In this document: positions 1,846 through 6,765 of the stretch, piece by piece
Position numbering within the stretch: position 1 is the first letter of the stretch
How the letters are laid out: each line of letters begins with the position of its first letter
Source of the DNA: Pseudomonadota bacterium
GTDB lineage: Bacteria > Pseudomonadota > Alphaproteobacteria > Acetobacterales > Acetobacteraceae
DNA length: 6,850 nt
Assembly (NCBI GenBank): GCA_021845835.1
Contig: JAJZVE010000248.1
Coordinates: forward strand, 1-6,850
Reading direction: 5' to 3'
Notes under the pieces: generated by a model
What the model saw: the letters and a program-made list of their open reading frames with translations, nothing else
What the model was told of the DNA's origin: nothing
Database searches by the model: none
Position numbers and translations under genes: made by a program

Positions 1846-4800
1846 CTATTCCGCCGCCAACGCGGGCCGCGCGTGCAGCCGCCGCAGCGCGCGGTCGATC
1901 CATTGCGCGGTCAGCTTCTCCTGCACGCCGTTCTGCCGCAGGCGTTCGTTCAGCGCCGGAAAAGCCACGCGGTCCAGCGCCTGATCCTGGTTGAAGCAGG
2001 AGAACACCACGCTGTGCGCACCGGTCGCCGGGTCGATGTGCAGTTGCAGGCACTGCGCGCAGACTTCCTTCATCATGCACTGCATCGGCGAGTTGATCGA
2101 GCCGATCGCCGTGTGATCGGGGCGCAAATACGGCCTGAGCGGGCCATGCCGCGCCGCGCCGACCGCCGCCATCATGCGGTCGGAGCCGATCGCGATCACA
2201 TGCGCGACCTCATCCAGCGGGATCGCCGGTTCGCCGAGTTGTCCGGCGCCATAGGCTGCCATCGCCTGCACGATGTTGCCGACGAAAGTCCTGTCCTGCT
2301 TCCGGCCGGACGCGAAGCCGGGCGCCTCATCGCAGCACCAGACGATCACGTCGGCGGCGCGCTCGATCTCCTCGACCTTGTAGCGGTCGGCTAGCGCCTT
2401 GTAGCCGGCGAAGTAGAGCACGCGCGTGCCGGCTTCGCGCAGCGCCGCGCCGATGCTGAACAGCACCGCGTTGCCCAGCCCGCCGCCGACCAGCGCCACC
2501 GTGCTGTGCGCGTGGATCTCAGTCGGCGTTCCGGTCGGCCCCATCAGCACCACCTTCTCGCCGGGCTTCAGCGTCGCGCACAGATCGGAACTGCCGCCCA
2601 TCTCCAGCGCGATGATGGAAACAAGGCCGCGCGCCGGGTCGGTCCAGGCGCCGGTCATCGCCAGCCCTTCCATCGCCAGCAGCGTGTCCGCGCCGGATTC
2701 GCTGAGGCGTGCCGCGTGCATTTCGTAGTTCTGCAGGCGGAAGAACTGGCCGGGACGGAAGGCGCGCGCCTGCGCCGGCGCGCGCAGCACCACCTCCACG
2801 ATGGTGGGCGTCAGCCGGTTCACCGCATGCACCCTCGGCGCCAGCTCGTCGCGGCAGCGCGCGATCAGCGTCGCGCCGTCGCTGCCGGATTGCGGGGCCG
2901 CGGCGATCACGCGGCTGACCACCGGGTAGCCGCGCCGCGCGCTGCCCATCGCCTTCACCACGTTGCCGAAAAAGCTCGGGTGCAGGTCGCCGAAGAAGCT
3001 GATGAAGCGGCCGTCCGCGGTGCGGTGCATCAGCATCTCGGCCTCGTCCGGCTTGCACAGTCCGCGCACCGGCGTGCGCGGCGCGCCGGAGTCATCGACC
3101 GCCTGGAAGTATTTGCCGTCCAGCCGGATGCGTCCGTCCTCGCGCGCCAGCACCGTGTTCGGCTGCGTACCCGCCGCGACCAGCACCGCGCGCGCCGGCA
3201 GCACGACCTCGCCGCCGTCCGCCTGCGTGCAGCGCAGCGCCGCGGCATGGCCGAAGCGATCGACCTCCACCGCCAGCGGCGCCAGTCCTTCGGCGAAGCG
3301 CACGCCTTCCTCCATCGCTTTCGCGACTTCCTCGTGATTGAGCGTGTAGCTCGGCGCGTCGGTAATCCTGCGGCGATAGGCGATGGTGGCGCCGCCCCAC
3401 GACTCCAGCAGTTGCGCCAGGCGCGGCGCGCGTCCCTCACGTGCCGCCGCGGCGCGCTCGTCGTGGATCGCCGCCGCATGGGCAAGGAATTCCGCCGCGG
3501 TCTCCGCTTCCTCCTCGTTCCAGCGCGCGCGCACCGCGGCCTCGTCCCGCTCGGCGATCAGCGTGCGATAACGGAGGGAGAATTTCTCCACCTGCCGCAC
3601 ATAATAAGTGAGGCTCTCCGTCGCCGTGTCGATCGCCGTCAGCCCGCCGCCGATCACCACGACCGGCAGCCGCAGCTGCAGATTCGCGATCGACGACATT
3701 TTCGCAGCCCCCGTCAATTGCAGCGCCATCAGGAAATCGCTCGCCTGCCGCACGCCGCGCGCCAGCGCGTTCGGCATGTCGATCACGGTCGGCCGGCCGG
3801 CGCCCATGCACAGCGCAACGTGGTCGAATCCCATCGCCCAGGCGTCGTCGATCGACAGCGTCGCGCCGCCGCCGAAGCGCACGCCGCCGAACGCGGCGAA
3901 TTCCGGCCGGCGTTCCAGCAGCAGCCGTACCAGCTTCAGATAGTTCTTGTTCCAGCGCACGGTGATGCCGTACTCGGCGACGCCACCGAAGCCCGCCATC
4001 ACGCGATCGTCCAGGTTCTCGAACAGCGTCGCCGAATCGCGCACCGGCGCGCGCGGATCGAAACCGAGCGGCTCGATCTTCAGCCCGTCGATCGCCACCA
4101 CCGTATGCCCGTCGTTCAGCAGATGATGCGCGAGCGTGAACCCGGCCGGGCCGAGGCCGACCACCAGCACTTTGCGCCCGCTGTCCGGGCGCGGCAGCGG
4201 CCGGCGGATGTCGAGCGGATTCCAGCGTGTCAGCAGCGCGTAGATCTCGAATCCCCACGGCAGCGCCAGCACGTCCTTCAGGATCGCCGTCTCCGCCTGC
4301 GGGATATCGACCGGCTCCTGCTTCTGGTAGATGCACGCCTTCATGCAGTCGTTGCAGATGCGATGGCCGGTCGCCGCCATCATCGGGTTGTCCACGGCGA
4401 TGGTCGCGAACGCGCCGAGCAGGCAGCCCTGCGCGCGCAGCGTGTGCATCTCGCTGATCTTCTCTTCCAGCGGACAGCCGGCCAGCAGGACGCCGAACGT
4501 GCTCTTCTGGAATCCGCCGGTCCTGCGGTCCTTCAGGCCCTTGCTGCACGAATCCTTGCCCTGCGTGTGGCACAAGATGCAGTAGTTGGTCTGGTCCAGC
4601 GCCTGCTGCGTGTTCATCCCGGCATCGGTGAGCGCGAATCCGTCGCGCGCGCGCCAGTCATGCTCCGGCAGACGCAGCATGGTGACGCCGTCGCGCTCGA
4701 TGGTCTCGAACGCGACGAGGTGCATCGGGTCGACCTTCTGCGGCACGCGGAACAGGGTGCCGCCGCGATGCTGCGCGCGCCCTTCTGCGGTCAGCGTCGC

Positions 4801-5295
4801 CCAGGCGGCGTAACGCAGCGCTGCGTCGAGAAATCCGGCGCACTGGTCGCGTTCCCACTGCGCGACATGCCTGGCGAACGCGAGCTCCGTGAGCGTTTCG
4901 CCCATCGCCCGTTCCAGGGCGGTGCGCAGCGCAGCACCGTCGAAGCCGGACGGGTCGGGATGTTTCTTCACCGCCTGGCGCTGCACGAACAGCCGCTTGC
5001 AGGCATGGATCGGATCGAGCCGATTCGTCTCCGCCGCGACCGCAGCCACCGCGTCGGCGATGCCGAACAGCCCGGCGACGAAGGCTTCCAGATGCGGGCC
5101 GAGCACCACCAGCAACTCGCCCTCGGCCCTGGCGTCCAGCGCATCGGGCGCTGCGCGGGCGGCCAGCAGCCGGCCGCACAGGGCGGCGTCCTCGGCGTGC
5201 AGTTGCGCCAGGAAACGCTGGTCCAGCCGCACCAGCCCGTCGCGCCCGGCGAGTTCGGCCACCTCCACGCCGACGCCCGGCGTCACTGTGTCCAT
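1846..5295 (-). CDS. Fused Nfn-like flavin/Fe-S oxidoreductase (GltD/NfnB + NfnA/PyrK domains); candidate 6-hydroxynicotinate reductase
   Basis: A cytoplasmic protein of 1149 residues. Residues 1-230 are mostly helical and unrecognised. Residues 239-330 carry two Fe-S cysteine sets of the GltD/dihydropyrimidine dehydrogenase type: C239-x2-C242-x7-C250 with GCPLEEK (C274), then C314-x2-C317-x3-C321. The FAD fold is at VVGLGPAGF (378-386), the NAD(P) fold at VVVIGGGLTAIDTA (545-558), and the closing motif FFGD at 767-770. Residues 818-1140 match NfnA/SudB/PyrK: FRPGQFF (846-852), GPTGTPTEI (919-927), LVGGGLGNA (935-943), and cysteines C1073, C1079, C1082 and C1100 for a [2Fe-2S] cluster. The start at 5295 has GGAGGAG 8 nt upstream; a longer reading to 5406 would overlap marR. 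It follows marR by 22 nt and precedes the enamidase gene. Domain assignment is secure. A role in reducing 6-hydroxynicotinate, directly or by supplying low-potential electrons, is inferred from context. Confidence 0.85.
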   Translation of the reverse strand: MDTVTPGVGVEVAELAGRDGLVRLDQRFLAQLHAEDAALCGRLLAARAAPDALDARAEGELLVVLGPHLEAFVAGLFGIADAVAAVAAETNRLDPIHACKRLFVQRQAVKKHPDPSGFDGAALRTALERAMGETLTELAFARHVAQWERDQCAGFLDAALRYAAWATLTAEGRAQHRGGTLFRVPQKVDPMHLVAFETIERDGVTMLRLPEHDWRARDGFALTDAGMNTQQALDQTNYCILCHTQGKDSCSKGLKDRRTGGFQKSTFGVLLAGCPLEEKISEMHTLRAQGCLLGAFATIAVDNPMMAATGHRICNDCMKACIYQKQEPVDIPQAETAILKDVLALPWGFEIYALLTRWNPLDIRRPLPRPDSGRKVLVVGLGPAGFTLAHHLLNDGHTVVAIDGLKIEPLGFDPRAPVRDSATLFENLDDRVMAGFGGVAEYGITVRWNKNYLKLVRLLLERRPEFAAFGGVRFGGGATLSIDDAWAMGFDHVALCMGAGRPTVIDMPNALARGVRQASDFLMALQLTGAAKMSSIANLQLRLPVVVIGGGLTAIDTATESLTYYVRQVEKFSLRYRTLIAERDEAAVRARWNEEEAETAAEFLAHAAAIHDERAAAAREGRAPRLAQLLESWGGATIAYRRRITDAPSYTLNHEEVAKAMEEGVRFAEGLAPLAVEVDRFGHAAALRCTQADGGEVVLPARAVLVAAGTQPNTVLAREDGRIRLDGKYFQAVDDSGAPRTPVRGLCKPDEAEMLMHRTADGRFISFFGDLHPSFFGNVVKAMGSARRGYPVVSRVIAAAPQSGSDGATLIARCRDELAPRVHAVNRLTPTIVEVVLRAPAQARAFRPGQFFRLQNYEMHAARLSESGADTLLAMEGLAMTGAWTDPARGLVSIIALEMGGSSDLCATLKPGEKVVLMGPTGTPTEIHAHSTVALVGGGLGNAVLFSIGAALREAGTRVLYFAGYKALADRYKVEEIERAADVIVWCCDEAPGFASGRKQDRTFVGNIVQAMAAYGAGQLGEPAIPLDEVAHVIAIGSDRMMAAVGAARHGPLRPYLRPDHTAIGSINSPMQCMMKEVCAQCLQLHIDPATGAHSVVFSCFNQDQALDRVAFPALNERLRQNGVQEKLTAQWIDRALRRLHARPALAAE

Positions 5296-5317: not shown

Positions 5318-5788
5318 TCAGGCGAGCTTGCGCAGCAGCGCAAGGAAGTGGCGTCGTTCCGCTGCGTCCAGCGGTTGCAGCGTCGCCTCGGTGATGCGCC
5401 ACGCACAGACGACGGCGCGGGCGGCGAGCGCGCTGCCCGCCGCGGTCGGCATCAGCACCGCCGTGCGGCGGTCCAGCGGGTCCGGCAGCCGCCGCACCAG
5501 GCCGCGCGCGGTCAGCCGACGCACCACGCCCTGAATGGTCGCCGGGTCCATCGCCGCGAGACGGCCAAGCTGGTTCTGCGTCACCCGCCCGAGTTCCACC
5601 GTCTTGATCAGCGCCGTGAACTGGGTCGGCGTCAGGTCCGCCGCCGCGGCGATCCCCTCCTGAAACAGCGCCGCATGGCGCTGGTGCGCCCGGCGCAGCA
5701 GGAAACCGACCTGATCCTCGACCGCATAGCCGTCCAGTACGGACTCACCGTCCGTCCCGCCGCCGGCTGCCAGCTCCGCGTCCGCCAA
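5318..5788 (-). CDS. MarR-family transcriptional regulator (NicR-like role suspected)
   Basis: A 156-residue winged-helix regulator, a normal length for MarR proteins. The N-terminal dimerisation helix is around GYAVEDQVGFLLRRAHQRH (20-38). The DNA-binding part runs from LTPTQFTAL (52-60) through QNQLGRLAAMDPATIQGVVRRL (recognition helix about 81-92), to the wing with D106-R107-R108, and a C-terminal dimerisation helix follows. The probable start is TTG at 5788, because GGAGG lies 6 nt upstream. The in-frame ATG at 5809 and TTG at 5842 have no ribosome binding site and would place codons over the operator. It is the first gene of the putative operon, 22 nt before the oxidoreductase, so it probably represses itself and the catabolic genes until a ligand binds. 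NicR of Pseudomonas putida, also a MarR protein, responds to 6-hydroxynicotinate; the ligand here is unproven. Confidence 0.85.
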   Translation of the reverse strand: MADAELAAGGGTDGESVLDGYAVEDQVGFLLRRAHQRHAALFQEGIAAAADLTPTQFTALIKTVELGRVTQNQLGRLAAMDPATIQGVVRRLTARGLVRRLPDPLDRRTAVLMPTAAGSALAARAVVCAWRITEATLQPLDAAERRHFLALLRKLA

Positions 5789-5793
5789 ATCGA

Positions 5794-5800
5794 CCCTCCG
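5794..5800 (-). promoter_or_regulatory. Ribosome binding site favouring a TTG start for marR
   Basis: CGGAGGG precedes TTG (5788), with 6 nt between GGAGG and the start codon. An ATG at 5809 lies upstream of this site in the same frame but lacks any Shine-Dalgarno. The leader would be very short if transcription starts near 5805. Confidence 0.65.
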
Positions 5801-5810
5801 TGCCAGCATA

Positions 5811-5824
5811 TTGTTAGTACACAA
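5811..5824. promoter_or_regulatory. Probable MarR operator, TTGT-N6-ACAA
   Basis: The 14-bp sequence TTGTTAGTACACAA has 4-bp inverted arms and an AT-richer core in otherwise very GC-rich DNA. It sits just upstream of the marR ribosome binding site and overlaps the likely -10 region, as expected for an autorepressing MarR protein. I see no second copy in the other intergenic stretches, which fits one operator controlling the whole downstream operon. Confidence 0.55.
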
Positions 5825-5842
5825 ACGACTGGCAAGGATCAA
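5814..5842 (-). promoter_or_regulatory. Candidate promoter for the marR-oxidoreductase-enamidase operon
   Basis: On the minus strand TTGATC (5842-5837, 4/6 match to TTGACA) is followed after 17 nt by TACTAA (5819-5814, 3/6 match to TATAAT). A second arrangement, TTGCCA (5835-5830) with CAATAT or AATATG near 5813-5807, is also possible. Either places the -10 under the operator. The matches are moderate, and position supports them more than sequence. Confidence 0.35.

Positions 5843-6063: not shown

Positions 6064-6761
<698 letters not shown>

Positions 6762-6765
<4 letters not shown>

Follow-up and report, generated by a model that had tools for sequence, protein, structure and literature searches.

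Fused Nfn-like flavoprotein at the locus

The stretch analysed here (the window) comprises 6,850 nucleotides of contig JAJZVE010000248.1 and carries the gene of a fused Nfn-like flavoprotein, hereafter NFN, a bacterial protein that combines in one chain the two halves of an electron-splitting enzyme otherwise described from anaerobes. The gene stands in a row with genes for LivF, a MarR-family regulator, a relative of enamidase and a GNAT acetyltransferase (Table 1). Genome comparisons suggest that the main job of NFN is to stand in for the ordinary NADPH-ferredoxin electron transfer enzyme, ferredoxin-NADP reductase (Fpr).

The NFN frame starts with an ATG at 5295, preceded by GGAGGAG, and stops at 1846-1848. 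All genes from MarR to GNAT are co-directional, with 22 bases between the MarR stop and the NFN start and 123 bases between the NFN stop and the enamidase start. The same gene order was found in G001, the nearest genome compared, with identities of 87% (NFN) and 92% (enamidase).

Domain architecture and cofactor sites

Analysis of the NFN chain revealed the folds of both Nfn subunits, with an NfnL-like module followed by an NfnS-like module, and the latter is covered to its end by 5jca_S. An initial annotation of the window had described a single fused chain, large half first, and this was borne out. The motifs of the chain are GxGPAG, GGG, seven cysteines with Glu335, FRPGQF (residues 846-851), VGGGLGN (936-942) and the small-half pattern C-x5-C-x2-C-x17-C. 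In the large half the seven cysteines and Glu335 would coordinate a pair of [4Fe-4S] clusters, the assignment of individual residues to one cluster or the other being putative, and the last four cysteines are putative [2Fe-2S] ligands of the small half. The GCP, RxC..C...C and E elements align with NfnL in a weak 12-bit stretch, and FSC of NFN aligns with FAC of T. maritima NfnA in a stretch of only 3.1 bits.

Of 80 NFN loci, 68 were entered. L032, whose length does not divide by three, and L069, which has a stop within the frame, were excluded, and this left a family set of 66 sequences. Alignment of 50 of these with the NFN of the window showed that all 11 cysteines and Glu335 were invariant in the 51 rows, as were C906, which lies outside both ligand sets, and R641 of the YRR at 640-642, which comes after the helical insert of the large half. 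Three spacing patterns were present in all 66 sequences.

Two parts had escaped the initial annotation, namely a 183-residue all-helical domain at the N-terminus and the helical insert (about residues 562-634). The helical domain has a predicted local distance difference test score (pLDDT) mostly above 90 and may be a docking domain; a Foldseek search against the PDB with residues 1-230 modelled alone returned no match at E<=0.001. PF27156 is listed for many relatives in the homologue search and was not returned by the Pfam scan of the window.

Table 1. Genes of the window and parts of the NFN chain (positions in the window)
Feature	Position	Strand	Remark
LivF	6064-6765	minus	
MarR-family regulator	5318-5842	minus	relatives stand beside NFN, and in some genomes beside Fpr
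NFN, fused Nfn-like flavoprotein, 1149 residues	1846-5295	minus	
N-terminal all-helical domain, residues 1-183	4747-5295	minus	outside the NfnL-matching part
NfnL/GltD-like module, residues 184-799	2899-4746	minus	
Two [4Fe-4S] ligand sets, C239 C242 C250 C274 C314 C317 C321 and E335	4291-4581	minus	
GxGPAG loop, FAD site of large half, residues 380-385	4141-4158	minus	
GGG loop, NAD(P)H site of large half, residues 549-551	3643-3651	minus	
Helical insert of NAD(P)H domain, about residues 562-634	3394-3612	minus	unaligned to NfnL in profile alignments
NfnS/PyrK-like module, residues 818-1146	1858-2844	minus	
Putative [2Fe-2S] ligands C1073 C1079 C1082 C1100	1996-2079	minus	
Enamidase relative	529-1722	minus	match to 2vun
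GNAT acetyltransferase	2-532	minus	cut by window end; frame overlaps enamidase stop

Size and annotation of the family

At least 7999 relatives of NFN were scored, every one at E<=0.001, and the 120 listed were 77-89% identical to it, which confirmed that the fused chain is genuine and not a product of chance. The titles of the 80 loci name Proteobacteria, Acidobacteria and planctomycetes, with Nitrosomonas among the members. The best NCBIfam match was PRK06567 (NF005128), a putative bifunctional glutamate synthase subunit beta/2-polyprenylphenol hydroxylase, at 731 bits with the best stretch at residues 19-963; this falls below the equivalog cut-off of 1072 bits, and no established function for PRK06567 was found. 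Many genes of the family now carry names derived from glutamate synthase in their source annotation.

Distribution of NFN and Fpr

In 150 genomes of the family of G001 (the family sample; Acetobacteraceae by the titles of related loci), NFN was present in 56 and Fpr in 93, with both in only 2 (34.7 expected) and neither in 3. The same genomes served as a control and showed no exclusion of NFN from enamidase (21 shared) or from the separate 6-hydroxynicotinate reductase Hnr (23 shared). A second sample of 205 genomes, from the order of G629 (G620 and G641 are titled Burkholderiales), contained NFN in 62, close Fpr in 79 and both in 3 (23.9 expected, one-sided p 1.7e-12), close Fpr being a match of at least 220 bits, a cut chosen after the list had been seen. 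When every Fpr-like match at E<=1e-28 was counted, Fpr rose to 105 genomes and both to 12 (31.8 expected, p 1e-9). A single protein served as the Fpr query, at thresholds of E 1e-40 (family), 1e-28 (class and order) and 1e-25 (50 genomes of NFN loci).

Three relatives of the window (G126, G046 and G098) have the order MarR-Fpr-enamidase, with Fpr in the place of NFN. In G126 and G098 a protein of 268-277 residues lies between MarR and enamidase, and that of G126 is an Fpr by solved structures (4f7d, E 5e-101; 1a8p, E 1.8e-91). Neighbourhoods were compared for the best-scoring 30 of the 56 genomes' NFN places and the best-scoring 30 of the 93 Fpr places. A MarR relative lay within 1.5 kb of NFN in 16 of 30 loci and of Fpr in 5 of 30, and a GNAT relative within the same distance of Fpr in 4 of 30. 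From these few loci we infer that the older unit was MarR, a ferredoxin reductase and GNAT, and that the enamidase is a later guest.

Two candidate observations were discarded. NFN had appeared broken in G008 and G058, which carry both enzymes, and the flagged stops proved to be natural C-terminal stops. The finding that five switches between NFN and Fpr were all reciprocal was dropped, being true by construction once genomes with both or neither had been left out.

Proposed function

The folds of both Nfn subunits in one chain, the invariant Fe-S ligand positions, the near-absence of genomes with both NFN and Fpr in each of two clades and the replacement by Fpr in three relatives are the computed basis for reading NFN as an Nfn-type ferredoxin:NAD(P)H oxidoreductase in a single chain that fills the housekeeping role of Fpr in cells lacking it, a reading to which we assign a probability of roughly 0.57. 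The displacement of Fpr suggests that ferredoxin is the physiological partner. Nfn splits the electrons of NADPH between ferredoxin and NAD+. From this chemistry and the anatomy of NFN (background on Nfn in parts of PMC6405883 and PMC6085437), NADPH would bind to the large half and reduce its flavin adenine dinucleotide (FAD). From this FAD one electron would then reach ferredoxin by way of the two [4Fe-4S] clusters, and the second would reach NAD+ by way of the [2Fe-2S] cluster and FAD of the small half, or the whole scheme could run in reverse. The two routes may be strictly coupled, as in bifurcation. The wider proposal, that a fused bifurcating enzyme of the Nfn type, bearing a helical domain whose fold is not recognised, took over the housekeeping ferredoxin reduction of Fpr in many aerobic Proteobacteria, is offered tentatively; if it were true, bifurcation would replace plain reduction with NADPH as the way in which those aerobes charge ferredoxin.

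Several observations weigh against the Fpr-replacement reading. The exclusion was weaker in 289 genomes of the class of G001 (NFN 64, Fpr 58, both 5 with 12.8 expected, p 0.003), where a borderline threshold is unlikely to matter because the best match of the weakest genome is 5e-60, and 172 of the 289 had neither protein, other FNR types not having been searched. Among 50 NFN-bearing genomes, drawn from 50 of the 80 loci, a close Fpr was present in 11, including four Azospirillum, and a weak one in 3 others, and both family genomes with NFN and Fpr carry an intact NFN. Cultured members that gave no Fpr match are Rhodopila globiformis DSM 161 (L010, G661) and Nitrosomonas halophila Nm1 (L076, G654). 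Neither a MarR nor a GNAT relative lay within 1.5 kb in 23 of 30 Fpr loci, which makes the shared locus a minority pattern, and the Fpr proteins of G126 and G098 score only 145 and 146 bits against the NCBIfam cut-off of 390 for E. coli-type Fpr. The p values for exclusion ignore kinship, and the exclusion is clade-structured. An RpoB tree of 137 of the 150 family genomes (8 had no match, 3 were not fetched and 2 gave pieces that were too short) indicated 5 changes of NFN and 9 of Fpr, the surplus arising from the four genomes that carry both proteins or none of the two. Well-supported branches underlie only 1 independent NFN pair, which does not suffice for a test corrected for kinship. The NfnS motif RxPLT, which has a role in FAD binding as in FNR-type proteins, is absent, RIPLT standing opposite GLALT, which is GLAMT in the window. 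The protein is for this reason called Nfn-like and not Nfn, and since the fold is kept its small half likely binds flavin through changed residues. No biochemistry of the NFN family was found in the open-access papers searched.

An unlikely alternative is that NFN does not bifurcate and works as a plain NADPH:NAD+ transhydrogenase, as a diaphorase or as a reductase that passes NADPH electrons to some other acceptor. Against it, Nfn is the best match of both halves, the Nfn-like ligand set is invariant and the exclusion of Fpr points to ferredoxin as the partner.

Relation to the nicotinate pathway

The initial annotation had identified the neighbouring gene as enamidase, correctly, the product matching the E. 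barkeri enamidase 2vun over its full length (E 1e-109, 370 bits, residues 12-395 against 2-385 of 2vun), and had proposed that NFN takes part in the reduction of 6-hydroxynicotinate. We asked whether the presence of NFN follows that of enamidase. Hnr is a protein of about 490 residues, separate from NFN, identified by homology and annotation only; several sources call it 6-hydroxynicotinate reductase and others a hypothetical protein. In relatives it adjoins a molybdenum hydroxylase gene near enamidase, and in some of them it shares a common nicotinate gene neighbourhood with NFN. Published work describes such a cluster in Azorhizobium, Bradyrhizobium and strain SG-6C, the Hnr of SG-6C sharing 42% identity with its E. 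barkeri counterpart (PMC3511419). Genes of the UPF0280 type (PRK04334) and for an 'amino acid synthesis' protein (PF06684) also recur near Hnr or enamidase (L160:6845-7945, L162:8880-9482).

The family sample contained enamidase in 44 genomes and Hnr in 50. Hnr accompanied enamidase in 41 of the 44 (one-sided p 2e-24), and on the RpoB tree, among 8 well-supported independent pairs differing in enamidase, Hnr changed along with enamidase in an average of 5.9 and against it in none. NFN did not follow enamidase, being present in 21 of the 44 against 56 of 150 overall (p 0.066). All 21 genomes with enamidase and NFN also contained Hnr, 20 genomes had enamidase and Hnr without NFN, and 33 of the 56 NFN genomes had neither; NFN is therefore dispensable for the 6-hydroxynicotinate step.

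That NFN chiefly serves Hnr in nicotinate breakdown, as a dedicated source of its reduced ferredoxin or as its direct partner, is a still less likely explanation than a non-bifurcating enzyme. The Hnr of E. barkeri depends on ferredoxin, 12 of the 21 genomes that have both NFN and enamidase carry the two genes no more than 5 kb apart, and NFN is present in 21 of 24 genomes (a hand count) whose enamidase is at least 79% identical to that of the window. In G001 about 20 kb hold the Hnr, molybdenum hydroxylase and Liv genes together with enamidase and NFN, Hnr being located at C81:5659-7131 and enamidase at C81:18307-19494. Yet besides the 33 and 20 genomes just given, no enamidase stands beside NFN in 76 of the 80 loci, or in 57 of the 60 whose downstream sequence extends for 1.4 kb or more (4/80 and 3/60 do adjoin), and family members occur in Nitrosomonas and planctomycetes. 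The pair is not tightly held together either, since about 4 kb of other genes intervene in L144, L145 and L146 (G028, G085 and G003), among them LysR regulators (L144, L145), PNPOx-domain and aspartyl-protease-like genes (L144) and a mannosyltransferase-domain gene (L145). In the lineage of the window, where NFN shares a gene row with enamidase, it may also supply Hnr through ferredoxin.

That NFN itself reduces 6-hydroxynicotinate in place of Hnr, as its operon-like position beside enamidase had suggested, is very improbable and was rejected, for an annotated reductase is present in all 21 genomes with enamidase and NFN, and the chain ends with the NfnS-like module, nothing like the substrate-reducing C-terminal part of dihydropyrimidine dehydrogenase being seen. 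The initial annotation had itself noted that this role would be contradicted if the genome coded for an Hnr-type reductase besides NFN, as G001 does. Its further proposal of a reaction without free ferredoxin agrees poorly with the exchange between NFN and Fpr; what stands of the annotation is the fused architecture and the enamidase neighbour.

Other neighbouring genes

In 5 of the 80 loci GNAT comes after NFN without an intervening enamidase, at a distance of 42-814 bases. LivF of the window appears to belong to a second Liv transporter, G001 having another LivK-LivHM-ATPase set between Hnr and enamidase. In 15 of the 80 loci the opposite strand carries, upstream of NFN, a gene for a CtaA-like membrane protein (heme A synthase by sequence reading), within 0.7 kb in 13 (L025, L028, L029, L030, L033, L047, L049, L051, L058, L060, L066, L073 and L077) and at 2.5-3.2 kb in L027 and L068. 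Mitochondrial heme A synthesis is ferredoxin-dependent.

Significance

Azospirillum and Nitrosomonas halophila, both of aerobic life, are among the titles of the NFN loci. In the parts consulted of a 2018 survey, the Nfn-encoding genomes were all of anaerobes except Koribacter (PMC6085437), and a section of a 2019 review added some facultative species (PMC6405883). A large Nfn-like family that swaps with Fpr in at least two clades would carry the Nfn design into ordinary aerobic metabolism. It would give a testable function to many genes now named after glutamate synthase, and it sets right an attractive but unsupported interpretation of the gene row around nicotinate breakdown. No paper on the longer NFN family or on its exchange with Fpr was found among the open-access papers searched.

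Comparison with known Nfn and Fpr-type enzymes

Fpr is a protein of 268-277 residues, against 1149 in NFN, and the Fpr family is without Fe-S clusters and without a second flavin half. An FNR-type fold is matched by only part of the NFN chain, and no FNR was among the 8 sequence matches at E<=0.01, that is, no whole-chain homology to bacterial FNR was seen.

Against PRK12779, presumably the family of the fused Nfn proteins called pattern C, NFN with its 1149 residues scores only 79 bits (cut-off 1519). As described in part of a review, pattern C proteins are known from Actinobacteria, Alpha- and Gammaproteobacteria, with M. curtisii as an example, are about 200 residues longer than clostridial fusions and have the large half first and the small half, with its FAD, NAD and [2Fe-2S] part, at the C-terminus, the same order as in NFN (PMC6405883). 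Because pattern C is already in print, the large-half-first fused architecture alone is not new.

NFN shares both subunit folds over nearly their full length with Nfn of T. maritima and with furiosus NfnI, at 23-24% identity, and the likeness extends to the 4Fe-4S region (GCP, RxC..C...C and Glu), the 2Fe-2S cysteines and the NADPH loop. It differs in its extra helical N-terminal domain and the helical insert of the NADPH domain, in a C-x2-C at the position of the NfnL C-x5-C, in a longer spacing ahead of GCP, in four cysteines as small-half ligands where NfnS has an aspartate and three cysteines, and in an altered FAD motif. Nfn consists of two chains, while in NFN the two halves form one.
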